A stretch of 64,000 nt of DNA from Membranipora membranacea (taxonomy: Eukaryota > Bryozoa > Gymnolaemata > Cheilostomatida > Membraniporidae), in assembly GCA_914767715.1 (NCBI GenBank), contig OU612073.1:2418001-2482000 (forward strand), given 5' to 3'. Below the pieces are notes generated by a model. It had not been told where the DNA came from. It made no database searches and was given only the letters and a program-made list of their open reading frames with translations. The translations under genes and the position numbers were made by a program. Below, in pieces: positions 11,273 to 49,361 of the stretch; the first letter of the stretch is position 1, and each line of letters starts with the position of its first letter.

Positions 11273-12081
11273 TTACCTTCCCTTATTGGAGGCACTCTTT
11301 CCAACATCAATAATTCATGCTAAGTAGAGCATTGAATTTTTCTGTCATGTAAATCTGATACAACTTTATCATAAGTAACTGCCGGACTATGCATTCATCT
11401 TTGGGTAGCCTTTAAGTATGTATGAATGCATATACTAACAATAGATGTCTCTCTGTTCTAGATTTGCTTTGGATAGAGCTAGTGGAGAACTTGGGCAGAG
11501 ATTTGATGAGATGGAGACCTTACTCAAACAAGAACCCTTAGAGGTAACCTTGGGGTCACTTAGTCTGTTAGAGATATAGGAAGATGTCTATTTGCTCTAA
11601 TAAACAACACACGTCTCACGTCTTTTTATAGTCTCGATACCCTGTGATACCGTGTGAGAAACCTTGATGTTGCTTGAGTTTTAGTTTCTGGTAGCAGTAC
11701 GGTCTACGCATTGTATACTAATAGTAGATCTCTTATTATTCAAAGAGTTGGCAATTAATCCATATTTTATGCCCACTGCTTTATTATGGTGTGGATTTTT
11801 AGATCTCGTCTCAATAAGCGTCTTATGATTCATTTATTGGGGAAGGAGACCATCAAATGATGCCCCTACCTAATTGTTCCCTCTTGATTTAATAATAAAA
11901 GTTGCAAAAAATATGGTCTTTTTCAGAGACAAGGGTGCAGAATTTAAGCAATCCACTAGTCGGTTAATTTGGCAATGTCCATAAATGTCACAAAACTCTC
12001 CGATCTTGTGAATTTTATCTACGATTATCAATGATTACCGGTATTAAAAATAATATTATCAGTTTTTATTCTTCAATTCAG

Positions 12082-12211
12082 ACACAAAACTTCACCACAG
12101 ACTTTGTAAGAATGAAGAAAGATTTGAGTAAGAAATGTGAGGAGGTGAAATGAGAGAAGGACAGACACCGATCTATCGAACAGGAAATGGTCACCGTCTG
12201 TCAGGAGCTCG
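12082..12211 (+). pseudogene. coiled-coil exon with stop shared by both copies
   Basis: The frame reads TQNFTTDFVRMKKDL…KCEEVK, then TGA (12151-12153), then EKDRHRSIEQEMVTVCQEL, and ends in phase 1 so that it joins the exon at 12778 (ETKIGEMEN…). The same TGA is at 56205-56207. A CGA (Arg) ancestor fits the charge pattern and CpG decay. Removal as a 43-base mini-intron (GTGAAA…CAG) is possible but would delete well-formed heptads. Confidence 0.7.
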
Positions 12212-13445
12212 GTGGGTTAAGCCTCATTTGATGTGTCATAGGCTTGGACATTATCGGTGTGTGTATGATAGTTTGATATTATTGATTAACTACATATCTC
12301 AGTCGGCCTAGTGTAAGGAAAGCCTAACAAACGCAGACAAACTGTGTCAGCGAATTGATTGAGGGTAAAATAACTATATAAAGGGGAGGTATGGAAAAAT
12401 TTGATGCAAATTATCAATGTTGTGCGGATTGGCTGTGTGGCTGTCCATGGAACAGGAGAAGGTGGCTGGCCTGATCATCATAAAACCATCCGAACTCTAT
12501 TTTGTATGTCTCATAAGTTAATTGATTCAAATCAAGCATCGGTCTATGTAACAAATGCTCTTGTCCACATCTAAACTGAGTGTAAGAGGACTGAGGCGTA
12601 GAAACCTCACAATAATTCAGGACATCTCTGAAAGCAGTACTAAGTTGTCCATATATATGCATACAAACATACTCTATTGTAACTTGTCTTTGACAAAGTT
12701 TACCAATCAAAGTTATCTTATCTTATATTACTTTTGCTACTAGTTATGCTTATTCAAGTTACCCTATATTATCACAGAGACAAAGATTGGTGAGATGGAG
12801 AATATGAGACATGAGAAAGAGAAGATAACTGATGACATGTCTGTAGTACACAATCAGTATAAACAGCTCAACACACAGCTAGAGGCTATGCAGAACTTGT
12901 TCAACGAGTATCAGGTTAGCTTCTAAAACAGTAAAGTTTGAGCTTAGGTTGCAAAATGTGGTACCCGTCAGGTCAGGTCCCAGGCAGTTTAATTTTGGGA
13001 CTAGCCTCATTTTGGAATATCCTTTTCGTATCGGTAAACTCCTATCCTTCTCGAAGCTGGCAAACGAGAAACGCCCCACAAGCAATATGCTGCAAGTTTG
13101 GGGCGGTTCTGGTATGTCAGGTTTACTTGTAGCTTATTGTAGATTATCTGCCTGCTGTTGCTTAAGGCTGGGAGGACTAGGCTATTAAAAAAGCGAAAAA
13201 CAAAATTATTGTTAATCTCTACCAAGTAATTGACCTACTTATACTGGTTCACAGAAAGTGAAATCACTTATAGAGGACGAGTTTACTAAGCTAAACACTC
13301 GTATTGAGGAGCTTACTGGTGAGAACTCCAAACTTTCTCAGGAGCTGATCAGATCTCAGGCTAATGATGAGTCTGCCAGACTAATGGATACAAGACAACA
13401 ACTGAGACAGACCAGCAAACAGCGAGATCAGCTCCTCACTGACAA

Positions 13446-14464
13446 GTTAGTCACTCATTACTCACTAATTTTGTCCTTCATCAAAGTTCACAGTAGTATA
13501 CAGTTAGCCCAGTTACACTGCCCTCTTTTTCAACAAAAAACCTAACCAGTTGCGTTTGGTTCGTACAGATGCTTCTTGCAGGTGCTCGATTAAAGTATCA
13601 TATAGTTGTATACTATTTTAATTTCCCACTTTGTCCATGGTTCCACCACTAGAAGGTATATCTCTGATCATACCAGTCAATTTAGACAATCACCTACCAT
13701 GTGCCTAATACTCATCTTAGATCCTGACATCTCTTTTTGAATATTGAATTGAGTTTATTTTGGTGTTAAAAACACATCACGGTTTAGGTATGATCCGTAT
13801 CTCTCAATTATTAAGAAGACGAATATCAAAAGGCACAAAGCTGGACAAAATTCTTGAGGTTCTAGTTTTTGGCATGGTAAAATATCGACTATTAGTTTTA
13901 TAACAATTGCGTAAAATGTGACTATCATCAACGATAGAATGTTGAGCTAAATTAAAATACTCATGTCAACAAAACAGTCAACCTGATAAGTTATTGTGGC
14001 TCTGTGAGTAACACAGTAGAGATGATTAGGGAGTTCAAAAGAATTTCAGAGAGCTTAATGAAATCAAGCGATACAGGGTGCTGGCAGCAACATTATCTAA
14101 GATTTGTGTCTCTTATCTTCTCAGTCAAAGCTCCATCTCGTATCTCAAACATTAATAACAAAAAATGTAGCTAACAAGGAAATAGCAGGGCAGGTGAACG
14201 ATGTCATGCACAGATATAAAAGTTATATTTTGTACACCTTACTACTACTATGAGCCTGTAATCCTCGCATTGAGAAGATTATGATCCAGGACACTTGTAC
14301 TAAATGGACACAGTTTTCTTTTCCTAGAATGACACAAGAAAAGTTGAAGTTGTATCTGGATTTCGGTCTCATTCAATAATGAAGAGTGTTTTTTCACCCT
14401 TACAGATAAATTGATAAAATTTCATAAGAACAACTTCCAGATCTGTTTTTAATATCTCATACAG
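13446..14464 (+). pseudogene. intron region where a coiled-coil exon has been deleted
   Basis: Unit 2 has a 199-base exon at 57939-58137 between the homologues of the flanking exons. Here the sequence jumps across about 350 bases at about 13745 and the exon is absent. The exon at 13255-13445 ends in phase 2 and the one at 14465 starts in phase 0, so joining them shifts the frame. Confidence 0.8.
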
Positions 14465-14662
14465 GTGGACGGTGCCGTAGATGCTATGGACGGTGAGAGA
14501 ACTGAACTCCAATCTCAGATAGAATCATACAAAGCACAGCTCTCTGCTGCCATGGAACTTATAGAGGAGGAGAAGATTATCACACAGGAGTTAGAACAGA
14601 AACTTCTGTCTCTCGGAGCTACAGTAAGAATATAATTATTGATGTTAAATAATATTTTACCT

Positions 14663-14730
14663 ATTTGAAGTTGCTACCCCTCTATCGAACAGTAGACTAG
14701 TAGATCAGTAGAGGGAGAGCAACTTCAAAT
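14663..14730. repeat. short hairpin repeat (22-bp arms)
   Basis: Arms 14663-14684 and 14709-14730 are inverses with two mismatches (core ATTTGAAGTTGCT). It lies right after an exon donor. The same structure is at 59065-59132 in unit 2. Confidence 0.7.
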
Positions 14731-15019
14731 TAGATCAAACCCAATCTTTGTTGAAGGATCACTTTAAATTGTGGTAAGGCATTATCCTGTCAACGACCAA
14801 TGAGTCCATGAGTTTTGTCAGATTTATTGACGAAATGTATTGCCCATCAAGGCTAGAGGATGACTGAGTTGTGAGTATATTGAGAAAGCCTGACAATTGT
14901 ACAATAAGTGAGCAGAGCAACTTAATTTATCAAATAAACTTAAGTGTATTTAGATTGATCAAAAATAGATAGGCCACGTTATAGTCAGGTCAGTATGAAG
15001 TCTTTCTCAATTTTTGTAG

Positions 15020-15211
15020 CCAGATTTTGCTCACTTTGATCGCCGTCTGGCAGAGCTGAGCGAGAAGAAAAATAACTTATCCTATGAGAACGGAAAACTA
15101 AACGCACAGGTTGATCAGCTTAGAGAACAATAAGACTCCCACAAACAAGAGCAGGACAAATATGACAAGACAAACAAGAGGCTTCTTCAGGCTGAGAATA
15201 AAGTCAAAATG
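15020..15211 (+). pseudogene. coiled-coil exon with private TAA stop
   Basis: Encodes PDFAHFDRRLAELSEKK…QVDQLREQ, then TAA at 15131-15133, then DSHKQEQDKYDKTNKR…. Unit 2 has an open frame at this codon (…LREELDPHKQ…), so this stop arose after the duplication. Confidence 0.8.
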
Positions 15212-18200
15212 GTACTCAGTCTCCATCATCAGCATCATCATCTGTTGTGTTGTTCGTCATGTCTGTGAGGCCCATCAAGTGATTTTCTGTGGCTTGGTCT
15301 CGGGTGACTCTTTGTAAGACTCTCACATGAATATGACATGCAGTCCTTACAGCATTATTTGGTCAGATCACAACCAAGAAAATGCATGAACTGAGATTGG
15401 TGTATTTTAACTGTGAATTATCCTCAGCCTAAATCAAAGCTATTGATTACCCTAGAGCAGTAAATGTTACCGAGAATTGAGTTAGCCAGTTTGGAGTGAC
15501 TCAAAGTTAGCTTGCACTATATTTTGGCTTACTGAACTCTATATGAAGAGGAGGTGGTGCATAAAAGTTAGCTAGCTATTTAAAGCAAGTGTAAAATGGC
15601 AAACCTTAATTCCTACAAATACTTAACTCCTTGAGGATAATTTGATTCCAGTTGAAGCATGAGTTGGATAATTGTAAGCACGCTTTAGCTCAGTCAGAGA
15701 CGACCTCACAGCAGTTACGGACTACATCAGAGCACAGAGAGACAGATTACAACTCAGCAGTGAGAGTCCGAGATGAGGCACTCAGAGACGCTAAAACACT
15801 CACTGCCAGAGTCGACAGCCTAGAGGAGGTCATCAAACAGCAGGTAGGAGGAGGATGTGTTTGTTATCATTGTTGTGGGATTTCTTACTTGTGGTTTCAA
15901 GATTTGAACCTGTCCAAATTATATAAAACCAATCGTACTCAAAAGAAAGAGAAGTTCATAGTGATTACACCTCACATGATCAGCTTGGTTGTGGTTTCTG
16001 GGCTTTTTGTATTTTATTGCCGGTTTTTTATTACTATTCATCACGAATGATCCTAGTCAACTCAAAAAATTTATGCATCTCTTTAATTTTTCGGCCAAGA
16101 ACATTTTTTTAAGATCCACACTACTCCCTTCCCCTGTGGGTAACCATGACTGTTCTGTCCTTTTACATTTATACAGGAAGAAATGAAATCTGATATCGAA
16201 GAGAAATTAAGGGATGACAATTCTAAAGTAGCCGAGTCTCTAGAGAACATGATGGCCTTACACACAGAGCTCCAGTGTAAATACGAGTCACTCCAGATAG
16301 AGCTGGGCGAGAAAGATACACAACTCAGTCAACACAAGAAAGACAAGTACAGAAAATTGATAAGAATAATTATTGTTAACAGGAGGAGGGTAAAGTAATA
16401 GTGACAATATGATCCTTATTTGACAGCAAATGACACATGAACGGCAAAATTAAGTTTTGATTTTCAAAAGCAGTATATAATGTTCATTTGATGTGAATGG
16501 GCATATCCTTTCCCTTCCCATCTAATCTGACAGAAATGTGAAAGCCTGCACCATCACAACTGCAACACAATTAATACAAAGCCGATGGTGATTCATATAA
16601 CATAATCCGTTCAGTGCGCTATTGGTCCAGTGGGGGGAACAAACTGGGCTGATGTAGGAGGGTTTCTCTCATTCTTTTGTGCAGCAAACATTTTATACTT
16701 TTATAATTTGTTCCATTTAACAGGAAGGCTGCAGAGAGTAAAATAGAGAGAGCAGAAAGGCAGCTTGACTCCACATCCCGAAAATTATCGGACATACTAC
16801 AGTTGTATTGCAATACAAACATTTACACTTATGGCTGTTGCTCACCCATTTTACATGGTCGGATAAAGGAACAGATGTTCGAATTTAAGTCAATTCACAC
16901 TGTACCCGCTTAGTTAGTATTATACTTCTCATATATCTTCATATTGGCTTGAAGATGCCCTGTCTCTAAATGAGATGCTGTCCGGAAAATATAACAACTA
17001 CTTGTCTTTGGCATCAAGGGCAATTTATCACTAATCATTCTTCTTTAATCATTCAGACTAAGAACATTGAACGGGAACTGAAGTCTGTTAAGAATGACAA
17101 CTCCAAATTAGTAAAAACCCTACAAGAGACTCTAGAGCTCAATGAGCAGCTGAGAGCTCAAGTATCAATACTAGAAGAGACTGTGTGTAAACAGCAGACT
17201 GACTGCGAAAAGGCTATTACTAAGAGGTGAGAATAATGAATAATAATAATGTGCTCGGTAAAAACTTATATATAATCACTTATCTAAAAAATATCTATAT
17301 ATATTTTTCTTTTTTTTGTTTGTCTTTTGTTTATGAGGTCAAAAATTTGTTATTTTAATTTGTTTATAACATACTTATTAATATGAAAACCTCAATTAAA
17401 ACACATAATAAATAATAATAACGAGATACATATCACATCCATCCCTCCCTAAGTAAGTTATATATTCCGGATAGATCTTGATTGTTTCATTGCCAACATG
17501 TTGACCTCATTTTGAACATTTCAGTCTTTCTCAAAGTCAGGTCATGTAAGTTGGCTGAGTTTTTAAGTGCAGGAGAGTGTGATTATCAAACCCGCATTCA
17601 ACATAAATTATGGATGTGTTTCTATTCTGTTGTATTAAAATAAAGAATAATATGGCGAACCCAACTAAAAGGGAACATTTTCAGACAACCAATTTCCATT
17701 CTCTAATATTCCAGGAAAGATCTTGAGAATCGATTATCACAGCAGGAGTCGGCGTCCAGCTCAAGAATAGCAGAGTTAGAAACACAAATAAGCAGAGAGA
17801 GGGACAAAGCTTATCAGAAAATGGAGGATCAGCTTAAAACAGTGAGTGTCTGTCATTAGGAAAAACCTTATATTGAACTCTGCAAAAATCATAATCTGAT
17901 AGTTTGTGTTGCTGAGATGACAGAGACTTGCTAGAGGTCTCAAACGCAATTGACTTACTGTTCGATGAAACTAAAATCTTCTGCCTGAAAAATTCGGACA
18001 AGAAAACAAATTTGCCTAGTTCAAAATCAATAGTTTTCAGATCAAGTAATACCAGGGATTTGGCTTAATATCCTTGCACATTCTCATTGGAGGACCACCC
18101 TTGGTCTTGCATCACCTAATAACCTACCTTTTCAGTTTAACCTCATCTTTGCAAGCTCTATATCACCAGTAGCAATTATTTCTTTGAGATGTAATCGAGT

Positions 18201-24623: not shown

Positions 24624-24724
24624 CTAAGATGTGACATCAGCTTCAGGTCTTGACTGTGCCACTTTCCACTTCAAAAACAACCGAGAGCTTTCCTTTTCTC
24701 CTTCAGTGATCTCTTCTAGTTCGC
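24624..24724 (-). CDS. Roco-caspase exon 18: C-terminal tail
   Basis: Encodes GELEEITEGEKESSRLFLKW and KVAQSRPEADVTS, then TAG at 24626-24624. It is a short acidic tail with no domain. Acceptor TTTATCCAG. Confidence 0.7.
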
Positions 24725-27700
24725 CTGGATAAACAAATAAAGTACATATGTTGAGGAAAGAAGATTGAACAACCACTGGGTTTTGAAAAGTCATGATTGA
24801 AATTAACATTTGTGTTACTTCTTCTTGTGGGTCAGAAGGAAAAGGAAATTCCAAAACTGCTGGCAGATTTCAATCAAATAAATTAAGCACAAGCAGGAGC
24901 ACGGGCTAAGAATCTTGGAATCCTGAAGAGCCAGTGCATCAGAGTAAGGGTGCAGACCCCTGAGGAACGCCAGCCGAACAAAAACTCACAACTTATTCAA
25001 GGTTAAATCTCAAGATTGATTTGAGACCAGTGTTAGCATTCTACCCTAGAGTTCCTCTCCTGGGATCTGGAGCTATAATTGGCACAACAAGGTTCAAGTA
25101 AATGGCTAGTTCCAGAATGCACTGCACATTGGGACAACAGTGAAAAACCTTCTAATGAGATAATCATGTTAAACTCAGACATACCAGGAAGCCAGGAGAG
25201 ATAAGTCAGTCTTGGATTTCTGAGATCAGTAGTGAGACTATCTGGATGTTCTCCTAGTTTTCTCATATCTATTCCAGGCTGTAAGAAGAGCATCCTGGTT
25301 CCCATATTACAAGTTATCCTCGGCATCTGAGCTACGTATGCCTCTTCTTTTCTCTCAGGAGGGAGAGATGTCTTTAGCTGGATAGTAGCCTTTACAGTTA
25401 ACTTATTCACTGCTTCCTGCATCTGTTAAACAACATGTCCGAATGCCTTATCAAACGATCTAGTTGAAAATTTGAAAGTGTGATCTACGTTTCAGAGTTT
25501 CAATGATGTTAAATGCAACAGTTTTAACTTACACATACCATCCATTTGTCTCAATTTTCAAATAAGTATCAAAATTTGGCAATGACATTGAAAAATGAAA
25601 TTCATATGGAATCTGTCAAGATGGTTTAGTTCTAAAGGTAGAAACTTATGCACAAAAAATTACTTTAAACAATGTCATGTACTTACTATGTTTCCCAGCA
25701 TCTGAAGGTGATATCGATGAGCATACTTGTAGAAAGTGATAATTAAACCTCTTATGAAGGGCGATCCATTCTGATCTCGAGGAGCAACAAAACCTGAAAC
25801 ACACCAATCAATATAAAGATATGAATAGTTTATCGCTGCTTATCAAGCTGGTAGTGAACAGGGAATTTTTTTGGTTTTAATTAGATAGTCTCTGTAGGGT
25901 TATTAATGTGAAGCTACTTCTACACACCGTCAAAGCTAGACTGTATGATGAAGAGATCAGCTACTATGCCATCTTCTGGTTTGTTATCCATATAGTATGT
26001 CCTTATACGTGAGTTGTCTCCTGATGCTTGACCTAATTCTGTACTGACTTCTGTGTGCACCGCTGGGTCAGGTGCTACGACATCATCGAGCATTATATCC
26101 CTGTTACCTATAAATATGACAACAGTAACATTTTAGTTCACTTCAATTGATAACTGAAGGAGTACCTCTAAGTTTGATCCAGAGACATATTTTGCTATCA
26201 GAGTAAAATGCAGTTCATATATAAATCCATATATCCATTATATAATCAATGACCTATCCTATCTATCATACAATTATTGCATCAATGAGAGGCAGTTCAT
26301 TTATTGCATCAAGTAAGGTAAACATGATTTCGATCACAACAAAATAATTATGGTTTTTGCTGATGAATGGATGTCCCAATAGAAATATACATACATTACA
26401 GTCGTCCTTACTTTGTGAATTAGATCAAGTATGATCCAATTTGCCTGTTTTTGTGCCGCCAGCAGTTGAATGGAAACAGCCACAATGTGGTCAAATAGGA
26501 TCAAACCTGATCTAATTGGGGATGGTAAGACTTAGATATGAATATGCTGTGCTCTGATGGTAGTGGTCATTTGTATTTAGTAGTAAAATTTACTAACCTC
26601 CAGCGCAGGCTTGTATAATGATGAGTTTTGGTTTTCCTTTCATAGCCGGGAAATTTCTGGCTGAGATTAACTGATAGATTTCAGTCAGCCTGATGTGTTC
26701 GTCATCTGACCCTTGGACACTCCCTTCAGCACCATGACTAGTTATAACCAGTACAAACATTCCTAGATCTTTGTATACTGAGCAGCCTGTCTGGTCTACC
26801 AGCTGAGTTTCTCTGTGAATATCTGTCACTATATCCTTTAGAAAATCAAATGTTCATTGTCACTGGGCAGCGATGGAGACTGGCCTCCCTAACAGAACGC
26901 TGTCAGGGACATTAATATAAACTAACTCACTGATGATTGAATAAATCACAAAAGGAGGCTGCTACCTAGGCTAAATAGACAATGGAAAAATGTTTACCTT
27001 TGCCCTGTAGTTTTTATACTCTCCATTCACAACAAACCCAAAGTTCTCCAGCATATTCTTCATATTATCATGATCAATGTCAGCACCCTTTCTCCAGACT
27101 TGTTGACCTTGTTGATTAGTGTACTCATACTTATTAGATAGTATGAGGGCGCGACCTCTTGTCTTAGTCATCTTATATCTCATCTAAAATAGGGTAGGGC
27201 AGGCATATTTTAGGCTCTACACTTCATCTGTCTTGAGATTAGTCGTAAACACAAATCAAAACCGCTAGAACTCAATATTTCAACCCTATTTCAACTTATA
27301 GGAATTTTGTTTGGTTCGTTTATTCAGATTTGTAGTAAGAAAAGATATCATATTCAAAAGATATTCCTTGAGTCGTCTGCTTTTTCAGCGAGCAACCACA
27401 ACTTCTAAACATAACTCTTGTTTATATTTATATCTTCTGTGTAAAGCTCTGAGTCGGATAAATATTTCTGAGCAGTTACTTTTTATTCGTTAGCAAGTAA
27501 AATGCAGATAAAGTCTCACTTAGGCTGTCGGGTGTCTATAGTTGAATAAGGAGAACTTACCGTTTCCCGTGAGATAGTTGACTGTGAGTCACTGAGGACC
27601 AGCGGTAGGTCGATTATTGGAGGTTGTGATGTCATCAGCTCTATGATCTCATCCACAGCTTCCTCATTATTCTGTGTATCATTTCTGACATTCTCTCCAC

Positions 27701-30700
27701 CAGCTGCTACTGCTCTGTGTGTCTCTTCAGGTTGTATAGCTGTGAGGAGACAATTTAAATGAATTGTGAGTGAATCTGGCCAATTAAACAGAGAATAAAG
27801 AAGTCTGAGAAACAATTTATAGATATATAACTCAAGAAGTCAATGATGATATTTAGGATAATAATGATATTACAATCTTGTTATTGAAGGATAATTTAGG
27901 TTGGCTGTACAGACCCAGACGAGCTGTTGAGTCCGGTGGCTGGAGAGTGGAGATATAAGCGCTGACTTTATCTTTATCTGGTTCTGTCAGCGATAAACCT
28001 GTCGGAGAGGAGAATAAATAATGGGAGGAAGTTAGTTATGTTACATTAATACACACTCAAGTACCATGAAAAAAATTGATCAAAATATTTTAATTGAATG
28101 GCTGAAAGTATTCGGAAATAAATTTACTGAAAGAAAGGACATGTACAAGAAATAAGATTTGTGTGGGATCTGCTCACACTTACACGGAAATCTTAGAGGC
28201 CTCGGTACTTTGAGTTGTCCAAGATTAGTTTGGTCGTTACAGCAGCTCACAGGGTCAGCGTTAGAAAGGAGTGTGCTCAGCTGATGAGAAAGAGGTAGAT
28301 ATTTGTTAGTGTGTCTCAGAGGAGAATACCAATCTGGATCTTCTTCTGTCTCAGGCTCAGACTCAGACTCGTGTAGATACAGACAGTGAGCACAGTAGAA
28401 CTCACAGATAGGTCGAGCTGCAACCCAGATAGACAGCAGGTGCTTTATGAGCGAGTCTGTGATGCCAATCAGTTGCTTCCATGAGGAATCTAATTCCTCC
28501 ACAGGTGTATCTACCTGTATAGTGACTCTGCGATCAGCACTGCTGTGTACTACACGGCTTACAGTGTTACCATGGTGTACCATAGCACCGTTACGAGCTG
28601 TTCTGATACGGAGACCGGGGTCAGTGAAGGGGGTCAGATATACACATGTTAGCAGGTAGTATGCGTATGAGGGAGGTGATAGGCCAAGAAAGTTTATATC
28701 CACTCTAAGTTGTAGAAGCTTATTGTCAGTAGGAATAAGGTCCAGGGCGTCAGTGGAGAAGTAGGGGATGATGAATGTATTCCTTGGTGATTTATGAACT
28801 GGACCACATAAGAGATGGAAAGCCTTAAGCAGTGGCAAAGCCACCTCATATGGAAAGTTTGGTTGATAGAACAAGTTCAATAGAACAGCCTCATCAACGA
28901 CTCCACTCTGCAACAGACGATCAACAAGTTTTGTGTATCTCTTTTTTGAGATCATCTCATTTCCTATAGCTATAATCCTGGGTTGGGCTGCCAGTCTAGA
29001 CTTCCACCGATCTCTAAATCTGTGGTGAAACAGGAGAGCGATTGCGTCGGTGACGGCAGTAAGTCTATGGAAAACATATCCCCTCAGACTATCCTCATGT
29101 TCAAACCACAGAACTCGACCAACATTGTGCATATAACGGAGCACAGTGAGATTTGCATCTCCTGGAAACTTTTTTGTGACTTCAGTGAGAAGAATGAAGG
29201 GCACATCACTCATCTGATCAAAGAAGAGAAGAAGCAACTCCCAAAGTTTTGGGATTATTGTGAAGAATGGTTCAGCTCTGATCTGTAGGGTCTGCAGTAT
29301 CTGGAGGATAACCTCCTTACTGTTAACACTGCTGTCTAACACAAATATATTCTGCGGAGGAAAGATTTCTGATGATGATGAGAAGAGGGTAATACTACAG
29401 AACTCAGAGGGACCTTTAGTAAATCTCTTCTCTTCCTCTATCATATCCCTGATTAGAGAAGTCAGAGTACCTAGCAGCTCAGTCCTTCTGGTGTTAAAGC
29501 TAGACACAGAGAATTTGTCTTTATGGGTGAGGACAAGAAGAGGAGGGCCTAGACGAGGACATGACACATATAAATGTGACATGTAGTCCAGGACCAGTAT
29601 CCTCACCGCTTCTTTCGGGCCACCTGATGACAACAACTCCTCAAATTGCTCCATATTGACAACAACGACTGGAATATAATTACTTCGTATTACCATATGA
29701 TAGGAAATATGGTAAATACGGTCACCTCCAAAATCAAATACTTTCAACTGTGACTCTCCAACTGTGATCTCATCCATTTTGAAAACCTCAGTAGTGTCAT
29801 CCTCAATCCCTTCTCTGTTACGATATGTGAGACTTCTTTCCTTTGTTTTCAAACTATTAATAAGACTAGTTTTACCTGCCATTCTGTTACCGATCACTGC
29901 TGCAGATACTATAGGGAGCTTTACACCACCGTGCTGTTTGAGATCTGTGTAGTATTTTCTTAGAGCCTGCAGGCCCTGCTCACAGACTGCGTAGGGAGGA
30001 GATGTCAGAGCTACACAGTCACCACAGTCCAGGTTCTCTAGAGCAGGTAGAAGAAGAAGACGAGAGTCTAATGATTTGAGTTTTCTGTTACCGTAGATGT
30101 TCAATGCCTTGAGCTTCTTCAGTTGTATAATAACTGGTGGGAGAGATGTGAAGATATTACCTCCTATATTTATGGTCTCCAGGTTCGAGAGATTTGACAA
30201 CCTGAAATAATAATTGTATGAGATATAAGAATTTAGATAAATACAGACGACTATTCTCAATATCGGTCTACAGCTCTTTTGGCACCATTGCCTGAAATAA
30301 TTGTATAGCATCAAAGGGCAGATGATAGTGTTGCTCAAGTATCACAAATATAGACATGACATAAATTTAATTCAACACTGTGTTAATTGCATCATGCATC
30401 ATTGGGTGATTATATCTGGTAGGTCGTAACTTGTCTCCCTCCGCTCAATATCTCACCCCATCCCAACAACTCCTCACCAATGAGTGAATTTATGATTAAT
30501 TTGTATTTATAATGGCTATGTGCAGCTTCAGTACGTTTGTGTACAAATCCCAAAATAATCATTCATGGCCGACATCAATGATTTTTTTTTTAAAGTTGGT
30601 GTAATCGCACATAGGCAACTTAAAGTAGACTGCCCTGTTCATATTTTATTATTTTATTATGTGTGATAGTTTGGCAACTTTTTGAATAGGCAAAAATTGA

Positions 30701-33700
30701 CATCTTAGGTCAGATTCGCAGCCTCTTTGTGTTTTTGGGAAATTCTCACAATTCCTCGAAAGAGGTTTGTCTGAAGAGAATCATATTGTCTTTGAAAGGG
30801 TGAAAGAAAACCTCGTGGCCAACATAGTCTCGCTTCTCAAGTCTTATATGGGCTCATTTAATGAGACAGCAAGATGGCGCTGATGGCTACTACCTCCACT
30901 ACTATCGACATCCTCAACATGGAAGCTCTACACCTAATTTTATCATCCTACCAAAAGCTTCATAGGCGTACCAGGGCAAAAGGTTCTTTTACAGATGCGA
31001 TTTCCACCATGTTGAAAATGATCAGATGTTAATCAGCTGTTCTCAGCTCATCTCTACATTTTGGGTATGCAGTTGACTGTGCAGGCATATTCTATCTACT
31101 TTGCTTGTTGACAGTTGAGGGACTTCAAATGAAATTGAACCGAAACATTTTTTATTATGGGAACTCAACTCTTTAGGAATAAAATCTGAATTAAATCTCA
31201 TGTAAGAGCAAGATGGCTCTGAATTTCGCCAACCAATGCTTTGAAAATATACAGCGAAGAGGCAAAAAATTGGTTTCAGAAAAAAGACTTCCACATTTTC
31301 CAAAAAGACGGATTTGATGACGACAATTAAAAAACTATGGTAAACACGTCAAACATCACTACTGTATCATATGTATATTTTGGGTCTACAATATTTGAAA
31401 ATGTAACTTGTAGTATAGACAAATCGGAAAATAATTTTTCACTTAATATTTGCTCCTGAAACGTACAAAATATATTTAAAGACATCGAGAATTCGTCTTC
31501 ATCGTGTGAAATCCTAAAATTTTGGAAAACAGAAATTTGCGTTACGTGTGTACTGTGTACTGAAGTGGAAAATTTTCTCGAAAAAGCGAATTTTTTAGAG
31601 GGAAAATAATTATTAGTTGTCTTCTTCTTGTACAGGAAAAACCAATCTTTAAACTTACTTATATCATAATTATTCTTAATGGACAACTGTCGAATTCCTA
31701 TTGGCTGAGGGATGGGAGCTTTCACCATTCCAGTCAGTTGCATGTTTATGCACTGATCTTTCTGAATTTGGGTAACTTGAAATTTGAGGATGGCGTTTAA
31801 AAGACTAACGGAAACATACATACTTATATCAGTCATTTATAAAGAATACACACACATACCTGGTACTTATATCAGTCATATATAGAATATACACATATAC
31901 CTGGTACTTATGTATATCGAATATCTATATAATTAATAAATATGATGGTGGTCTTTAAAAAACCTGTTGGAAATATATATATATAATATAGATAAAATGA
32001 TATATATATATATATATATTTCTATCAGTCATAATATACAGAACACACACACATACCTGGTACTTATCTCAGTGAGCCCACAGTCAGACAGATCCAGCTC
32101 AGTCAGCTCAGTCAGCTCATACAGACCATCAGGTACAGATCTGAGTGCTGGGTTCTCACTGAGGTCCAGGTACTGTAACTTAGTCAGCTGTGATATCCTG
32201 TATTATATATAATATGAGTCAGATATAATTACTTGTGCTGGAGGATTAATATTATACAGCAAGATATTTCTCAAACAATATATTAAATTTTCTTCATTTC
32301 GCATGAATATGATCAAAGTATATCATAATATCTCATATTAAATCTGAATATCTATATAATTAATAAATATAGAATTATTCTCCTGCTACATGAGTGCAAA
32401 GATGAACTTACGCTACTGATATCAGTCACATAAGGAATACACACACATACCTGGTTCTTATCTCAGTGAGCCCACAACTAGACAGATACAGCCCAGTCAG
32501 CTCAGTCAGCTCATACAGACAATCAGGTACAGATCTGAGTGCTGGGTTACTACTGAGGACCAGGTACTGTAACTTAGTCAGCTGTGATATCCTGTATTAT
32601 ATATAATATGAGTCAGATATAATTACTTGTGCTGGAGGATTAATATTATACAGCAAGATATTTCTCATACAATATATTAAATTTTCTTCATTTCGCATGA
32701 ATATGATCAAAGTATATCATAATATGTCATATTAAATCCGAATATCTATACAATTAATAAATATAGAATTATTCTCTGGCTACATGAGAACAAAGATGAA
32801 TTTACGATACTGATATCAGTCACATACAGAACACACATACCTGGTACTTATCTCAGTGAGCCCACAGTTATACAGATTCAGCTTAGTCAGCTCAGTCAGC
32901 TCACACAGACCATCAGGTACAGAGCTGAGTGCTGAGTTATCATTGAGGTTCAGGGTCTCTAGCTTAGTCAGCTGTGATATCCTGTATTATAAATAATATG
33001 AGTCAGATATAATTACTTGTGCTGGAGGATTAATATTATACAGCAAGCTATTTCTCAAACAATATATTAAATTTTCTTCATTTCGCATGAATATGATCAA
33101 AGTATATCATAATATCTCATATTAAATCTGAATATCTATATAATTAATAAATATAGAATTATTCTCTGGCTACATGAGAACAAAGATGAATTTACGATAC
33201 TGATATCAGTCATAATATACAGAACACACACACATACCTGGTACTTATCTCAGTGAGCCCACAGTTATACAGATCCAGCTCAGTCAGCTCAGTCAGCTCA
33301 CACAGACCATCAGGTACAGATCTGAGTGCTCGGTTATTACTGAGGTCCAGGGTCTGTAACTTAGTCAGCTGTGATATCCTGTATTATATATAATATGAGT
33401 CAGATATAATTACTTGTGCTGGAGGAGTTATGTTATCATACATTCTTAAATGATAAATCAAATTTACTTCATTCCGCATGAATATGATCAAAGTATATCA
33501 TAATATGTCATATTAAATCCGAATATCTATATAATTAATAAATATAGAATTATTCTCTGGCTACATGAGAACAAAGATGAATTTACGATACTGATATCAG
33601 TCACATACAGAACACACATACCTGGTACTTATCTCAGTGAGCCCACAGTTATACAGATTCAGCTTAGTCAGCTCAGTCAGCTCACACAGACCATCAGGTA

Positions 33701-36693
33701 CAGATCTGAGTGCTCGGTTATTACTGAGGTCCAGGGTCTGTAACTTAGTCAGCTGTGATATCCTGTATTATATATAATATGAGTCAGATATAATTACTTG
33801 TGCTGGAGGAGTTATGTTATCATACATTCTTAAATGATAAATCAAATTTACTTCATTCCGCATGAATATGATCAAAGTATATCATAATATGTCATATTAA
33901 ATCCGAATATCTATATAATTAATAAATATAGAATTATTCTCTGGCTACATGAGAACAAAGATGAATTTACGATACTGATATCAGTCACATACAGAACACA
34001 CATACCTGGTACTTATCTCAGTGAGCCCACAGTTATACAGATTCAGCTTAGTCAGCTCAGTCAGCTCACACAGACCATCAGGTACAGAGCTGAGTGCTGA
34101 GTTATCACTGAGGTTCAGGGTCTCTAGCTTAGTCAGCTGTGATATCCTGTATTATAAATAATATGAGTCAGATATAATTACTTGTGCTGGAGGATTAATA
34201 TTATACAGCAAGCTATTTCTCAAACAATATATTAAATTTTCTTCATTTCGCATGAATATGATCAAAGTATATCATAATATCTCATATTAAATCTGAATAT
34301 CTATATAATTAATAAATATAGAATTATTCTCTGGCTACATGAGAACAAAGATGAATTTACGATACTGATATCAGTCATAATATACAGAACACACACACAT
34401 ACCTGGTACTTATCTCAGTGAGCCCACAACTAGACAGATACAGCACAGGCAGCTCAGTCAGCTCACACAGACCATCAGGTACAGATCTGAGTGAGTTATT
34501 ACTGAGGTCCAGGATCTGTAGCTTAGTCAGCTGTGATATCCTGTATTATATAAAATATGAGTCAGAAACAGTATCTTGTGCTGGAGGATTTATGTTATCA
34601 TACATTTTTAAATGATAAATCCAATTTTCCTCATTCCACATAAACATCATCAAACTATATCATAAATCTCATATTAAATCCGAATATCTATATAATTAAT
34701 AAATAGAGAATTATTCTCTGGCTACATGAGTGCAAAGATGAGATTGTACAGCACACGTTGTTTAAAATTTTATATATAAGTACACATAGAACATGGCCAA
34801 GTTCAATACACAAGTTTAAATACTTTAATTACTAAATTCCTTGATGGTATGCAGTAAAGTTTTTTGTTAAGTTCCAATATTAAATCTAATCATATATTTT
34901 TAATTTGCCTATGTATGTTATTTGTGGTGTATACTGGCCACCAATAATAAAAATGGGCGATGCAAGAGTAGCCGGTGTCACATAGAAGGCTGCGGATAGA
35001 TTGTTTCATGTAAGGTTTTCTCATTTTTAATTCCGATCAAAAGAATGGAACAAAACGACATCAAATAAGACTTAATTCAAGCTTGCTGTTGGATAAGAAT
35101 ATTTTGCTAATGCTTTAGTAAGTGTGAGTAAGCGGGCTGTGAGACAAGGATAGAGTTAATAGGAGCCTCGCCCGGGTCATATCACTGATAAATAACTCAG
35201 AAATATAGCATAATGGTATTATGTGTACTCTACTTACTTCTGCCATTCAAATGTGCCCTGCCTGAGAGAGTCTTCATCAATAGCGTTCAGTCTGAGCTGT
35301 AGGAGATGAGGAGCTATAACTGGTAACCAGGAGGGGAAACTCTTCAGAAAACAGATACGGAGATGAGTGATAGAGTTATCTCCCTTATCAAACTCTATCT
35401 CCTCCCATGTCATGTCTCTGTAGTCTGTGTACCGTAAGTCAGGTATCCTCTCTATCTCCTCCTCTCCTGAGTGTCTGTACCAGACTGTGTACTTCTCTAT
35501 AATGTGATTATATTAGAGATAAATATAATAAGGCATTAAAGATCATAAATATTAGAATTATATTGATCTTTGTGTACTCATAATACTTATATGGAAATGT
35601 TAGTTAACAGTTAGATAAATTGTTGTCAACAATACTATAGAATTTAGAATGAAATACAGGTGCAGATTGGTCGGTGTGGTTTTAGTTGTCTGATCTTAGG
35701 TGCAGAATATGTTACATTTGAGGCGCAGTCGAGTTGATAAAACACACCAAACAACCTGTGAGAATAGGAATGCAACAACATTATGAGTTGTCTGACCTTA
35801 CAAGCCTATGTCTATTACTTATAAAAACCGTCAGTAGGGAGAAATATCCTTGCTTTTAGCTATTGCAACAATTTCTGTTTCCTAACATTAGGAAAAGTTC
35901 CCATCAGCTGCTGAATTTATGCATCACAAATCATGAGTGTAATATTACAGTTATTTTTAGTTTGACAAGGTTAATCAACTCCGCCCCCCCCCCCCCCGTG
36001 GGTTTCATCATAGACAATGATATTGAAGAAATTTTACGATTGATATGAGTTTCGGCAAGTTTTTAGCTGAAAAATATGTCCTGTAAATAGTGATCAACCA
36101 CGCATCTATGTATAAAGGCAAACTGCTAATGGAAATACCCATCCGGGGCCAACTGGCCATCCTTTTCACCTTGTATCAATTTCAGCATGTCACTATAACA
36201 AAGCCATCTGGTTGCAAATATTGTAGCCGGATGGCCTAGCAGCAATTTGTATTACAAACCCATCCGCATGGCTGTTTGGCAACCATTGGTGGCCCAATAC
36301 CAACTAGAAAGGGCATTCATCAGCCTACTGATGCCGTATACCCATCCGTATCTGTTTTTATCCCAGTAAACTATTCTGGATGGTTTCCCCCTATAAAAAC
36401 CCATCTGGTAACTGCTGGTTGCCAAGTTGTCATCATGCAGCTGACAAATTAACCGGTTGGTACTTTGGAAACCACTTGAGTTCCAATATAGCTTAAGAAA
36501 CTTTCACTCAGCAATTTCCAAGGCTAATTGGTGCAAAATAACCTACTGAAATGGCATAAGATAAATTAGATTGTCAAACAATTTCATCCTTACCGTCAGA
36601 AACTGACTGTCCATCACCTTTAGCTGAGGGAGGAGGATTATTTCTCTTTGAAGAAGGCTCAGCTTTTCTGATACATGATAGGTAACTTCCCAT
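24624..36693 (-). CDS. LRR-Roc-COR-caspase protein (18 exons, 1557 aa)
   Basis: Exons in transcript order: 36693-36594, 35496-35238, 34540-34403, 34146-34006, 33762-33622, 33378-33238, 32981-32841, 32591-32451, 32197-32057, 30201-28184, 27998-27915, 27739-27561, 27183-26998, 26835-26598, 26107-25928, 25793-25687, 25422-25185, 24724-24624. All phases match and the total is 4674 nt. Layout: acylation-type N-terminus (1-10), LRRs (about 120-530), Roc (P-loop GNRMAGKT 552-559, DFGG 604-607, THKD 673-676), COR (to about 1120), linker (to 1208), caspase p20 (1209-1350, His1304, Cys1347), p10 (about 1350-1520). Known for the families: Roc-COR is the GTP-driven dimer switch of Roco proteins, LRRs sense ligands, and caspases cut after Asp. 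Inference: a membrane-linked danger sensor that activates its own protease. The ATG at 36693 is preceded in frame by TAG and starts an N-myristoylation motif. The gene is intact and converges with the coiled-coil pseudogene. The linker donor GTCTGT at 27914 is the weakest splice call. Confidence 0.85.
25185..25422 (-). CDS. Roco-caspase exon 17: end of caspase p10
   Basis: Encodes MQEAVNKLTVKATIQLKTSL…, then QMPRITCNMGTRMLFLQPGI, which matches the (K)QxPxxxSxLxKxLYF strand that ends p10. About 30 further residues follow (DMRKLGEHPDSLTTDLRNPR…), then donor GTATGT in phase 1. Confidence 0.8.
25687..25793 (-). CDS. Roco-caspase exon 16: caspase p10 core
   Basis: Encodes GFVAPRDQNGSPFIRGLIIT and then FYKYAHRYHLQMLGNI. 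It matches the GYxSxRxxxxGSxFIQxL loop and helix of caspase small subunits, which form the substrate pocket. Confidence 0.8.
25928..26107 (-). CDS. Roco-caspase exon 15: intersubunit linker and p10 start
   Basis: Encodes GNRDIMLDDVVAPDPAVHTE… through …YYMDNKPEDG to ADLFIIQSSFDG. The Asp-rich part lies where caspases are cut between large and small subunits. The ADLF..QSS segment matches the ADxLxxYST strand that opens p10. Confidence 0.8.
26420..26515. repeat. 96-bp fold-back element in Roco-caspase intron
   Basis: TTAGATCAAGTATGATCCAATTTG (26420-26443, shown in pieces: TTAGATCAAG, TATGATCC, AATTTG) is matched in reverse at 26492-26515 with about 20 of 24 bases. A small MITE is likely, in the intron just after the exon with the catalytic Cys. 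Confidence 0.6.
26598..26835 (-). CDS. Roco-caspase exon 14: caspase catalytic His and Cys
   Basis: Encodes DIVTDIHRETQL…MFVLVITSHGAEGSV… and …KPKLIIIQACAGG. The catalytic His is in SHG (codon at 26736-26734, residue 1304). The catalytic Cys is in QACAG (codon at 26607-26605, residue 1347). The 43-residue spacing is typical of true caspases. Both residues are present, so this is not a pseudo-protease. Confidence 0.92.
26998..27183 (-). CDS. Roco-caspase exon 13: start of caspase p20
   Basis: Encodes MRYKMTKTRGRALILSNKYE, which matches the usual caspase start (GxALIIxNxxF). After it, RKGADIDHDNMKNMLENFGF corresponds to the R-x-G-x-x-x-D…L…LGF stretch of caspases. It runs phase 0 to phase 0. 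Confidence 0.85.
27561..27739 (-). CDS. Roco-caspase exon 12: acidic linker
   Basis: Encodes AIQPEETHRAVAAGG… to …SDSQSTISRET. It is polar and acidic with several Asp, as expected for a flexible prodomain-like link ahead of the caspase. It ends in phase 0 at GTAAGT. Confidence 0.75.
27915..27998 (-). CDS. Roco-caspase exon 11: COR-caspase linker, part 1
   Basis: Encodes CLSLTEPDKDKVSAYISTLQ and a few more residues, with no recognised domain. The acceptor CTCCGACAG is good. The donor GTCTGT is weak but is the one that gives phase 1, as the next exon needs. Confidence 0.55.
28184..30201 (-). CDS. Roco-caspase exon 10: last LRRs, Roc GTPase and COR
   Basis: A single 2018-nt exon. It starts with LRRs (LSNLETINIGGNIFTSLPP…). 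Roc follows: P-loop GNRMAGKT, then DDTTEV in the switch region, DFGGDRIY for the G3 DxxG-type motif, and THKD for G4. After Roc comes COR: a helical N-terminal half (…FPPQNIFVLDSS…) and a second half with IPYFSTDAL and a FYCAHCLYLHE stretch, like the C-x2-C seen near the end of COR in some animal Roco proteins. No kinase domain follows. The exon ends in phase 1 at GTAAGT; an upstream in-frame ATG at 30338 lies in the intron and is not the start. Confidence 0.9.
30202..32056 (-). other. long intron between LRR array and Roc-COR exon
   Basis: A 1855-base intron. Open stretches on the minus strand (31043-31303, 31327-31836) have no recognisable domain, splice context or codon pattern, so I treat them as chance. 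Short TA-rich simple repeats lie at about 31970-32020. Confidence 0.6.
32057..32197 (-). CDS. Roco-caspase LRR module exon (last)
   Basis: A 141-nt, phase 2-2 module reading LQYLDLSENPALRSVPDGLY and then LDLSDCGLTEIST. It splices over a 1.85-kb intron to the Roc-COR exon, where three more LRRs complete the array. Confidence 0.85.
32451..32591 (-). CDS. Roco-caspase LRR module exon
   Basis: A 141-nt, phase 2-2 module reading LQYLVLSSNPALRSVPDCLY and then LYLSSCGLTEIRT. It differs from its neighbours mainly at the exposed strand positions. Confidence 0.85.
32841..32981 (-). CDS. Roco-caspase LRR module exon
   Basis: A 141-nt, phase 2-2 module of the LETLNLN subtype, near twin of 34006-34146. 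This implies block copying of more than one module. Confidence 0.85.
33238..33378 (-). CDS. Roco-caspase LRR module exon
   Basis: A 141-nt, phase 2-2 module, near twin of 33622-33762. It differs mostly in the second repeat (LDLYNCG here, LNLYNCG there). Confidence 0.85.
33622..33762 (-). CDS. Roco-caspase LRR module exon
   Basis: A 141-nt, phase 2-2 module. Exon and flanking intron are almost identical to the next module (33238-33378), including the unusual intron variant TTATGTTATCATACATTC, which suggests a recent copy. Confidence 0.85.
34006..34146 (-). CDS. Roco-caspase LRR module exon
   Basis: A 141-nt, phase 2-2 module (acceptor TAATACAG, donor GTATGT). It belongs to the subtype LETLNLN…LSSVPDG…LNLYNCG, which it shares with the exon at 32841-32981. 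Confidence 0.85.
34403..34540 (-). CDS. Roco-caspase LRR module exon (first, 138 nt)
   Basis: The first of seven phase 2-2 exons read on the minus strand. It encodes two LRRs of about 23 residues and is one codon shorter than the other six (a deletion in the LRS-ENP segment). Symmetric phase lets modules be added or lost without breaking the frame. Confidence 0.85.
35238..35496 (-). CDS. Roco-caspase exon 2: pre-LRR region
   Basis: Encodes EKYTVWYRHSGEEEIERIPD… then THLRICFLKSFPSWLPVIAP and LQLRLNAIDEDS, which look like an LRR cap or degenerate first repeats. The acceptor ATTATAG and donor GTAAGT are clear. It runs from phase 1 in to phase 2 out, fitting the LRR modules that follow. Confidence 0.8.
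35497..36593 (-). other. first intron of the Roco-caspase gene
   Basis: Has a poly-C run at 35984-35997. Between about 36130 and 36480 the words CATCCGG, CATCTGG, CCATCCG and their inverses recur at least eight times with GGTTGCCA words between them. No exon is seen. Confidence 0.5.
36594..36693 (-). CDS. Roco-caspase exon 1: MGSYLSC N-terminus
   Basis: Encodes MGSYLSCIRKAEPSSKR… with Gly2, a small residue at position 6 (Ser), Cys7 and basic residues at 9-10. This pattern is used for N-myristoylation plus nearby palmitoylation. The rest is Pro/Ser-rich and looks disordered. It ends in phase 1 at a GTAAGG donor. An AG precedes the ATG by nine bases, so an upstream non-coding exon is possible. 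Confidence 0.7.
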
Positions 36694-38522: not shown

Positions 38523-40312
38523 AATATGTTTACCCTCTCGATTAATAAACCGAATATAGTAACCAAGACTTTGGTTTTTATCAATGTAAACAGCCAAAGC
38601 TGCCAGATTTTTGAGCACGACGCAATAGCTGACGCAAATTATTCAGTTATGGAATCATTCACGAATAACCTTACTATTCACAGCAGTAATTTATACCGCT
38701 CCAGTTTTTGTCTCAGATAAGCCTTATTTCTATAACAGCCAATGAGTAACTCTTGGCCTATCTTTATGGCTTGCCTTCGTGGGTTGCAACCATGTTTTCT
38801 GTTATCACCATGTTTAAACTGGTTTAATAATAATTGCATAGGGCAAACAGTATGACTGATAAAGAAGAGATAACAACGTTACAACCTTCTTTATAGCACT
38901 CCTAAACATAGACAAACTTACTAAGGACTAATATCTCACCGTCTAGAATTACTCTAGAATCAATGTCACATATAAATGATTTTCAGACACAAATAGACCA
39001 CTACACAGAGCAAGAGTTTAAATAGCTAAATTAAGGGTATAACATAAAGTGACCCAAATCGAGCTGAACTAAAATCTAAGTGTTATTTCATCATCTAGGT
39101 AGGGTAATTGATGTAAGTGTTCTAATGGCCTGTTACCACTAGAACGTAGCCGTTAGACCTCCATGTAGCGACCAGTTTTGTTCAGTGAATTTTTGACCTG
39201 TTGTCTCCTGACCACTGCTACAGTTTTATGCCCGGTTGGCTATGTCACATCCAGACATGATTGTATCAGTCATTTACTTGCTCAAACTTACCTATTGGTA
39301 TCAGTTCGCGACATCAATATGGCTTTGATATAGATATACATGCTGTTTCAATCCTGGCTGAATGGATTTGTCACAAATATGATGAGTGGTTTGAATTGAA
39401 CCCATCCACTTCTATGTTGCAAATCACCCTAAGACAGTTAATTCTAGCTAGAGCTCTAATATGCTATATAGTTTGAAGGTGACTTAATATTAGCTAGCAC
39501 CAGTTTTCTGTAGCAAAGGTTGGTGTTCATATTATGTAAAGTATTGGGCGAATGGAAGTTGGCCATAACTTTCACTTTTTGATTCTGCGTGTAAAGCCAG
39601 ACTTTTCCTCCTGCAAAAACTTAACTTAACTTTGCTATGGTAGGCAACCACCGATTGCCCATTTAATAACTGGATCCCTATGTGGCAGGCAGCACAACCA
39701 GCCCTTAAAAGCGTTCGGGATGGCGATCGCGGCTGTAGGCGGTTGTTAAGGGGTGGATGGGAAGCTAGGAAACTCCGTTTTTTGCAATTTATTACTTTTT
39801 TAACTTTAACACCTGTTAACAGCACTTTTGCCTCATCTCACAGAGTTCTAATCCAAGATCTGTGCATTACTAGCCTAAGCTCAGAAGAAAGGATTGCTCC
39901 AAGTCAATATTATTGTCTTTACTCAACAATTTTGCTAATTTTTCTGATTTACCGCTGCATGTTACTCCTTGCTAATAACTCTCTGCTGCACCTCTCCTTA
40001 CATTCTGACCATGAGTGATTCTCTCCAACACGAGGTAAATATAACTCCAATTGCTTCTGGGAAATTGAGGTTTTAATTTAGAAATCAAACTAATCAACTT
40101 GGATTGGACTGCGCAGACATTACTTACTTACTTACTTCAATCAATCAACGACAGCAGGGAGAATGACAGTGACAGCTAGTGACAATCAAAACAAATGGTC
40201 TGCTCTGCTGGTGTTGACAGTATATATTAATAAATTGTAATGACAAATGACAATATTTCCATGCCCTCTCTGTTTGACATATTAAGTGTGAAGACTTTGC
40301 ACATCAACCATA

Positions 40313-40470
40313 CGTACATACATACATACATACATACATACATACATACATACATACATACATACATACATACATACATACATACATACATACATACATA
40401 CATACATACATACATACATACATACATACATACATACATACATACATACATACATACATACATACATACA

Positions 40471-40501
<31 letters not shown>

Positions 40502-40538
40502 CATACATACATACATACATACATACATACATACATAC
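40313..40538. repeat. CATA tetranucleotide microsatellite
   Basis: About 226 bases of TACA/CATA repeats with one slip (CATTACATA) near 40470. Long open frames through it are products of the repeat and not genes. Confidence 0.97.
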
Positions 40539-41207
40539 TTGACATGTTGTTTGTCTACTTTTTTTTCTAATCTGCATTGAATGTACATGGCCTGATAGTT
40601 TAGGTCTATGTGATTATGATGATCAGAATGGTTAAGTGACTGATTTGTCTCGGCAACCTGAGCTACCATTTCAATAGAAGACACAGCATGGAGGATCCAT
40701 AGTGCTCAAATATTATTCATTAGAGAAATGGTATGTAACTACTTTATCAAGATACATATAAATTTGATGTCAGTTGCTAGAATGACAATCTATTGACCCG
40801 GGATAAAGTGAAGATGTCAGACATTCTATGGATGCATGTGAGCCAAGTCACGCATATACAGTCCAGCTAGTTAGTTTAGGCCTGTTAGCCTGAGCTGAGG
40901 GTTCCTTTTTAATTTGGTTCTAGTTTGAACAGTTGTATATTGAGCCAGCCATTAAAACATCAACATTAATTTTATAGGGCAATTTTAATGATTGGGGAAC
41001 CAACAATAGTTTATTAGTAGGTTTATAGCTTCTTCACATTTTGTCAAGATAATGGCAGATTTTTTCTCACCTGTTAGGCTTTTGTGGCAGGTGTATAGAA
41101 TATCATTTTATTAGATTACATGCTCCATGCAAGCAAAATAATTTTATATTAGTATAATTTTAAAAAAATTGGGAATGCGCAAAACAGAGAACATATCTAC
41201 ACATTGG

Positions 41208-48245: not shown

Positions 48246-49361
48246 TGTGGGTAGGTAATGTTTTCAACAATAATATCATGTATTCTCAGAAGATTGGCAT
48301 AGTTTGAGATAGAATAACAGACACCCTCAAAATGTACATTGTAATATGTAATGCCCAGATCAGGGTATGCCTACAATAAAAATACTTGCCTATACATAAT
48401 ATATGTGTAGCCTGTTAATGAGTTGCTCATCAGGGGATACCACCTTCTACACAAACAATAAAACTTGTCATTCAATGCAGGGAGATTGAAGAGGAGAACT
48501 GGGCTTTTTAGAACATATCTATAATATGAGTAGAATCACTTTGATGTATTATGCACCAATAGTCCCTCTTCTGCATGTTTTTCATAAGGTACCAACTGCC
48601 CATACAGTTTTCAGTAAATAAATGCATGAAGCCTACATCATTGATTGTCTCAAATAACACTCTCACTTCCCAGAGAATTTCATGGGATTGCATGAAAAAC
48701 AATGACAGTTATGTAACAGCTGGCTGACCAATTGGTCATAATAGCTATATCTTATGTTTGATTACTCATTGCTTGCTTGGGCTGGGACTGGAAATAAATT
48801 TATTCTGTGATCTTGGAATTTGCCAAAAACATCAAAAATCAATTAGTCTTTGGAATTGTGTATTGCAATGAGCTGTTGTTGGTTCCCACCTCCACCTACA
48901 ATCAAGCTACTAAATCTCACCAAGGTAAACTCTGTAATTGTAGTTATACTAGCTTTTTTTTAAATTTATTACTTGCTTCTTGTGCAATAAATTATTCAAA
49001 CAGGAAATGACATTAAATGCACATACTTGAACCACCCTTTTTCATTAGAAGAATTCCATTGGCCAATTCAGTCATTTCAAGCACATGATTGGCTTTATAC
49101 CGGTTTCCGGTTAGCCACTGTTGAGAATCCCAATTAACCAAAATATCTTGAAGCTGAATACAGTGAATTTCTCAACAGAACTCATCATCCATCAGAAGTA
49201 GCATAGGGCAGGCTCCCTGTCGAAACAATATCCTCCTTTTAAAGTGTTTAACTAAGGAATAAGATACTTTTTGTTAATTTTACTCTTTGGTGTAACTCAT
49301 TGTCTCCACTCCTTGGTTAATTCAAGGAGTAAAACTCTTATACTCCTATATTATATTAGGT

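Follow-up and report, generated by a model that had tools for sequence, protein, structure and literature searches.

The locus described here, on the minus strand of a 64,000 nucleotide stretch of the Membranipora membranacea genome (the window, in what follows), raises the question of whether an LRR-Roc-COR GTPase and a complete caspase are produced as a single polypeptide, whether such a chain is found elsewhere, and what it may do. The link between nucleotide state and output is still debated for Roco GTPases of the LRRK2 group, and a natural Roco-caspase fusion would allow Roc-COR assembly to be read out by direct measurement.

Splicing of the locus returned exactly the gene model of the initial annotation, with 18 exons joining in consistent phases into 1557 residues; all 17 introns are of the GT...AG type and the stop codon ends at 24624. 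The features of the gene are listed below, one per line.

24624..36693, minus strand: whole gene, LRR-Roc-COR-linker-caspase, 18 exons, 17 introns, 1557 aa (splicing and translation, Pfam, relatives)
36594..36693, minus strand: exon 1, MGSYLSC start, predicted N-myristoylation signal (MGxxxS common to P0017, P0036 and P0037)
35238..35496, minus strand: exon 2, WYRHSG block 5' of the LRRs (WYRH[ST]G also in P0017, P0036 and P0037)
32057..34540, minus strand: exons 3-9, seven phase-2 cassettes of two LRRs each, with near-identical introns (138 nt once, 141 nt six times)
28184..30201, minus strand: exon 10, last LRRs, Roc GTPase and COR (Pfam Roc; fold and PDB matches)
29868..29891, minus strand: P-loop GNRMAGKT, residues 552-559 (sequence motif)
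27561..27998, minus strand: exons 11-12, COR-to-caspase linker, holding intron 11 at 27914-27740 (homologous segment in relatives)
26598..27183, minus strand: exons 13-14, large (p20) part of the caspase (Peptidase_C14 match on each exon alone)
26734..26736, minus strand: catalytic His codon, SHG, residue 1304 (sequence)
26605..26607, minus strand: catalytic Cys codon, QACAG, residue 1347 (sequence)
25185..26107, minus strand: exons 15-17, intersubunit segment and small (p10) part (Pfam; weak caspase-9 match; alignment)
24624..24724, minus strand: exon 18, C-terminal tail and stop, the least certain exon (splicing; no counterpart in relatives)

The weakest splice site of the gene is the donor of intron 11, a poor GTCTGT at 27914. 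Several alternative donor/acceptor pairs of this intron also preserve the frame, so that the exact join between exons 11 and 12 is unsure. At the other end of the caspase, exon 18 and the last 60 or so residues have no counterpart in the aligned relatives from Watersipora subatra, described below, and most of the relatives' chains finish shortly past p10.

A near-direct duplication flanks the gene (1936-18085 against 41198-64000, in blocks 95-98% identical), corresponding either to a tandem array or to an unpurged second haplotype. The stretch that breaks up its second copy contains pieces of a LINE-type retroelement with reverse transcriptase and endonuclease domains (49356-51405, minus strand). 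The window also holds an ORF with a THAP domain (61355-62020, minus strand, 29.1 bits) and, at 40304-40613, a microsatellite, long low-complexity repeat with encoded CMYV/HTYI runs.

Within the spliced protein, Pfam recognizes LRRs (LRR_4, 168 bits), a Roc domain at residues 550-636 (30.4 bits against a cut-off of 27) and Peptidase_C14 at residues 1217-1490 (98.7 bits, positions 1-232 of the 233 in the profile). The Roco hallmarks are present, namely a Roc domain with P-loop (GNRMAGKT, starting at residue 552), DxGG (DFGG, 604) and (T/S)HxD (THKD, 673) motifs. A COR domain was not found above the Pfam cut-off, COR-A scoring 12.0 bits on exon 10 against the required 35.3; of the three profiles suggested along with the initial annotation, Roc and Peptidase_C14 were thus recovered, while COR was not. 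That COR directly follows Roc is seen from the fold: the predicted model of exon 10 (pLDDT 85.6, pTM 0.84) aligns over its full length to the structures of LRRK1, LRRK2 and CtRoco. Unlike the reviewed LRR-Roc-COR group, the chain does not end after COR, and carries downstream a complete Peptidase_C14 domain, covering the whole profile and including the catalytic His and Cys in their HG and QACxG contexts (SHG starts at residue 1303, QACAG at 1345). Pfam found neither CARD nor DED in the window protein, where Roc-COR occupies their place. Identity as an NLR was ruled out, no NACHT or NB-ARC STAND ATPase being listed by Pfam at E values up to 1.

Relatives were collected by three homologue searches, all of which need common 5-residue words, the first two scoring the approximately 8000 best word-sharing candidates. 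The window protein gave one match, P0001; the alignment of the two gave 35 proteins; with the caspase region of P0005 as query, 12 were retrieved, 11 from W. subatra and one from a shrimp, the latter featuring repeated caspase domains and no Roc. Pooling yielded 18 distinct relatives from W. subatra (Bryozoa), about 25-37% identical to the window protein in Roc-COR. Peptidase_C14 is above cut-off in 12 of them (P0004, P0005, P0036-P0045), and in nine of these 12 matches to LRRs and to a Roc or Ras-like GTPase are also found (P0004, P0005, P0036-P0039, P0041, P0042 and P0044). Many LRR and GTPase matches in the nine are below cut-off: their Roc matches all fall short of the curated value, and three attain that of the MMR_HSR1 GTPase model. 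As for the other three, P0045 has kept LRR, COR-A and caspase and lost the P-loop, while the P0040 and P0043 models start within Roc, yet align to Roc-COR.

The fold of a whole relative was also evaluated. P0039, folded along with 31 other proteins (pLDDT 76.9, pTM 0.64), gave a predicted model in which a single chain resembles both LRR-Roc-COR structures and caspases, with TMt of 0.66-0.77 among the matches listed; the caspase fold is thus seen on a relative's model. The annotation of P0005 as isoform X2 implies at least two transcript models. According to the W. subatra genome paper, the Ensembl annotation was based on the transcriptome (PMC12902671), and the protein models of this species are likely to rest on RNA.

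A caspase above cut-off was not found in the remaining 6 of the 18 relatives (P0001, P0012, P0013, P0016, P0017 and P0032). P0001, named as a MFHAS1 homologue, continues past COR across the linker and enters the caspase, with a match to profile positions 1-49 of 18.2 bits against a cut-off of 21.4. The P0012 and P0016 models end just short of the caspase, and P0017 and P0032 have no caspase match. P0013 hardly differs from P0004 in Roc-COR (end branches of 0.026 and 0.018) and is divergent past COR. With six relatives lacking a caspase above cut-off, the presence of this domain is either labile or understated by incomplete models.

On a Roc-COR tree of 44 rows, 8 changes are required to account for the distribution of the caspase label. 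These are not read as repeated gain, because 24 of the 44 rows are exon-sized fragments whose C-termini are unseen, and some models are truncated. Long branches lead to P0045, P0033 and P0015; P0034 and P0035, whose match was too short, lie outside the tree, and P0046 was also left out. The 24 fragments (P0002, P0003, P0006-P0011, P0014, P0015 and P0018-P0031) are Roc-COR ORFs from metagenome contigs, similar in length to exon 10 and matching the window at identities of up to 65%; they may be animal exons that gene prediction took for prokaryotic genes.

Some members show features of their own. In P0044 (1869 aa), the Roco-caspase part is followed by fibronectin type III repeats and by a hydrophobic C-terminal stretch which, by eye, resembles a membrane span. 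An acidic motif similar to SDLSDVExEGYCDE recurs between COR and caspase in W. subatra linkers, for instance those of P0005, P0036, P0038 and P0042, and is absent from the window chain; it is a possible site of phosphorylation or of cleavage after Asp.

The search of other genomes for the same layout, proposed with the initial annotation, thus showed that the one-chain architecture recurs in W. subatra, and the occurrence of the same chain there rules out an oddity of a single species. All named species carrying the fusion in the searches made are W. subatra. To judge from these predicted proteins, LRR-Roc-COR-caspase fusions make up an expanded family, apparently of bryozoans, the expansion being seen in W. 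subatra at least. The original proposal of a sensor, a Roc-COR switch and an active-looking caspase on one chain is supported by the reading frame, the Pfam matches, the predicted Roc-COR fold and the relatives.

Two rival explanations concern the gene model itself. According to one, the locus consists of two adjoining genes, a LRR-Roc-COR gene whose end lies close to the in-frame stop at 27853 and a caspase gene starting from the ATG of exon 13 at 27183. Several observations are in its favor: the intron 11 donor is weak, read-through of exon 11 meets that stop, exon 13 opens with an ATG, intron 12 contains AATAAA signals at 27487 and 27324, and the P0012 and P0016 models stop just before the caspase. 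The relatives point the other way, since all 12 caspase chains of W. subatra also align to Roc-COR and P0001 continues from COR into the caspase start. The alignment across relatives moreover extends from the COR end through the exon 11 segment and, weakly, the linker to the caspase start, and the exon 13 ATG lies at the start of a conserved YKM...RGR block. We therefore consider this split very unlikely, and it was set aside as the main reading because single annotated W. subatra proteins span COR, linker and caspase. Even less credence is due to a pseudogene or an assembly artefact: the large duplication around the gene could be an unpurged second haplotype, but 1557 codons without a single internal stop, intact splice sites and catalytic motifs, and clear Roc-COR similarity to the relatives make this explanation hardly tenable.

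The caspase of the single chain looks like an active enzyme. The His-Gly, as counted in the multiple alignment, and QACxG motifs are present in 13 out of 13 caspase-bearing chains, the window chain included. Arg residues at 1239 and 1415 lie in the expected caspase context, and we take them to be of the S1-pocket type, associated with Asp specificity. Several Asp residues are found in the intersubunit segment, so that self-processing would be possible. The p10 part by itself matches solved caspases weakly (caspase-9, E 0.016). Among solved structures, the window caspase is closest to caspase-2, with reconstructed ancestral caspases and caspase-9 coming next; the P0005 caspase is closest to CED-3 and caspase-9. 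Effector caspases match both almost as well as initiators. Initiator caspases are activated by proximity, and the nearness to caspase-2, caspase-9 and CED-3, all of initiator type, would fit with this kind of activation.

The opposite end of the protein suggests a membrane location. Exon 1 encodes MGSYLSC and exon 2 encodes WYRHSGEEEIERIP. An MGxxxS start and a WYRH[ST]G block are found together in P0017 (MGNGQS), P0036 (MGAKSS) and P0037 (MGCSLS); in P0041 YRHSG is present and the MG start is absent. The combination, common to four chains, supports exon 1 as predicted. MGxxxS at the N-terminus, with Gly2 and Ser/Thr at position 6, is presumably an N-myristoylation signal, and a myristoyl membrane anchor is accordingly predicted for the chain.

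The LRR region is built from repeated exons. Since exons 3-9 are all of phase 2, cassettes could be added or skipped in frame, and their alternative use is possible. The cassette exons are 86-99% identical to one another and their introns are equally alike, intron 3 being identical to intron 6 and intron 4 to intron 5 (100%), which suggests a young or homogenized array, shaped by recent conversion or duplication. In the seven W. subatra relatives tested, the top-ranking repeat period is 46-47 residues or twice that, weakly so in three of them.

Changes among cassettes are biased towards replacement. In the six 141 nt exons, pooled pN is 0.095 and pS 0.025, values drawn from few changes and from exon pairs that are not independent, and the introns behind exons 4-8 differ on average by 0.060; some exon pairs reverse the trend, their introns being more divergent than the exons (for the 4-7 pair, 0.066 in the intron and pN 0.010). 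Counted in minimal codon steps, replacements make up 22 of the 24 changes (binomial p 0.035). Of the 10 concave-strand positions, which we assigned from the LxxLxLxx pattern and which form the predicted ligand face, 9 are variable, against 5 of the 36 others (Fisher p 1.6e-5). This contrast is partly expected from constraint on the framework, whereas pN exceeding pS is not. The replacement-rich change would fit a role of the LRR face in recognition, and makes of it a testable hypothesis.

On these grounds we regard as rather probable a membrane-anchored one-chain receptor, in which recognition by the LRRs would engage a Roc-COR dimer cycle activating the chain's own caspase by proximity, within a family whose expansion is seen in at least one species of bryozoan. 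The N-terminal myristoyl anchor would tether the chain to the membrane, and a fan of LRRs made from exchangeable two-LRR exons would take a ligand, from a pathogen or from non-self. Ligand-bound LRRs would shift the monomer-dimer equilibrium of Roc-COR at the membrane, and the dimer would adjoin two caspase units. Self-processing of the paired units might then occur at Asp residues in the stretch joining p20 to p10; the processed caspase would carry out local proteolysis or kill the cell.

One element of the initial annotation, the dimerization of COR driven by GTP, had to be revised. In the available text of a review on Roco proteins (PMC6337361), CtRoco is described as mainly monomeric with GTP and dimeric when nucleotide-free, and LRRK2 dimers as located at the membrane. 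CtRoco being monomeric with GTP, the signal for dimers may be the hydrolysis or loss of GTP; hydrolysis or membrane recruitment would be the more likely trigger.

It is conceivable, and we propose it tentatively, that these proteins are lineage-specific one-molecule death receptors, expanding and diversifying in bryozoans for the recognition of pathogens or of colony self and non-self, with one gene doing the work that an inflammasome or apoptosome divides among sensor, adaptor and initiator caspase. No description of such receptors in the phylum Bryozoa was found in the literature searched, and, given the colonial life of bryozoans, how they tell self from non-self is a question still to be answered. 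The colony reading is motivated by the listing of bryozoans among colonial animals with allo-incompatibility, in the portion of the source consulted (PMC8195603).

Both the role and the activation of the one-chain protein could be different from those proposed. It could serve in development or housekeeping, for instance in tissue regression or renewal, instead of recognition. Caspases have developmental roles too. Human MFHAS1, a member of the same Roco group, is without a settled receptor role in the review text (PMC6337361). The size of the W. subatra family and the replacement-rich ligand face of the LRR cassettes are better suited to recognition, and a developmental role seems to us unlikely, if well worth keeping in mind. 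Less probable still is that the caspase serves as a scaffold or decoy, or that activation of the chain comes from a partner and not from its own dimerization. The logic from nucleotide to dimer is unsettled for Roc-COR, in the same text (PMC6337361), and P0045 retains its caspase though the P-loop is lost, both of which would suit a scaffold or a partner; the retention of both catalytic motifs in every caspase-bearing chain argues against it. The preferred reading is thus still the receptor activating its own caspase, which would represent an animal case of sensor, switch and initiator-like caspase within one gene.

Comparison with known systems sets the limits of what is new. The closest proteins are those of W. 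subatra (P0004, P0005, P0036, P0038 and P0042 among others), which share the one-chain LRR-Roc-COR-linker-caspase organization of the window and differ in their longer linkers, carrying the SDLSD-type acidic motif that the window lacks; these fusions stand in public databases under automatic names, as "MFHAS1 homolog" or "uncharacterized". Human MFHAS1 and the Chlorobium tepidum Roco have an LRR-Roc-COR core and fold like those of the window, but no protease domain is given for their group in the review sections available (PMC6337361). LRRK1 and LRRK2 share the LRR-Roc-COR fold and, again from that partial text (PMC6337361), an enzyme placed C-terminal of COR; in contrast to the window, the enzyme is a kinase and other accessory domains are present. 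DAPK1 is also a Roco protein, and one linked to cell death, but features a kinase before Roc and a death domain, with neither LRR nor caspase (PMC6337361, same sections). The topologies reviewed there are LRR-Roc-COR, LRR-Roc-COR-kinase and the DAPK type, none with a caspase, and the word "caspase" does not occur in the accessible text (PMC6337361). No published Roco-caspase fusion was found in the literature searched, which mostly lay outside subscription journals, so that the original remark that no named family ends in a caspase agrees with this literature and with the Roco topologies in the consulted part of the review (PMC6337361).

Other systems resemble the window in part. In the TLR/MyD88-like proteins of Aplysia, Roc-COR is combined with an immune output domain in an invertebrate, with TIR where the window has the caspase, as far as the excerpted source describes them (PMC9334734). 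Brown-algal ROCO genes, proposed as immune receptors, also have LRR exons of phase 2 and exon shuffling; unlike the window, they carry one LRR (72 bp) per exon and encode LRR-ROC-COR only, with no caspase in the sections seen (PMC11378527). Bacterial metacaspase-NACHT-WD40 proteins (PMC3501461) similarly join a caspase-type protease, a P-loop NTPase and repeats in one chain, but with a STAND ATPase and WD40 in place of Roc-COR and LRR, and a metacaspase in place of an animal caspase. Protease-NTPase fusions as such are therefore already known elsewhere; what is new in the bryozoan proteins is their Roco architecture, which is shared by an expanded family. Beyond the initial annotation, the analysis brought out this expansion, a predicted N-myristoyl anchor and LRR exon cassettes that have diversified.
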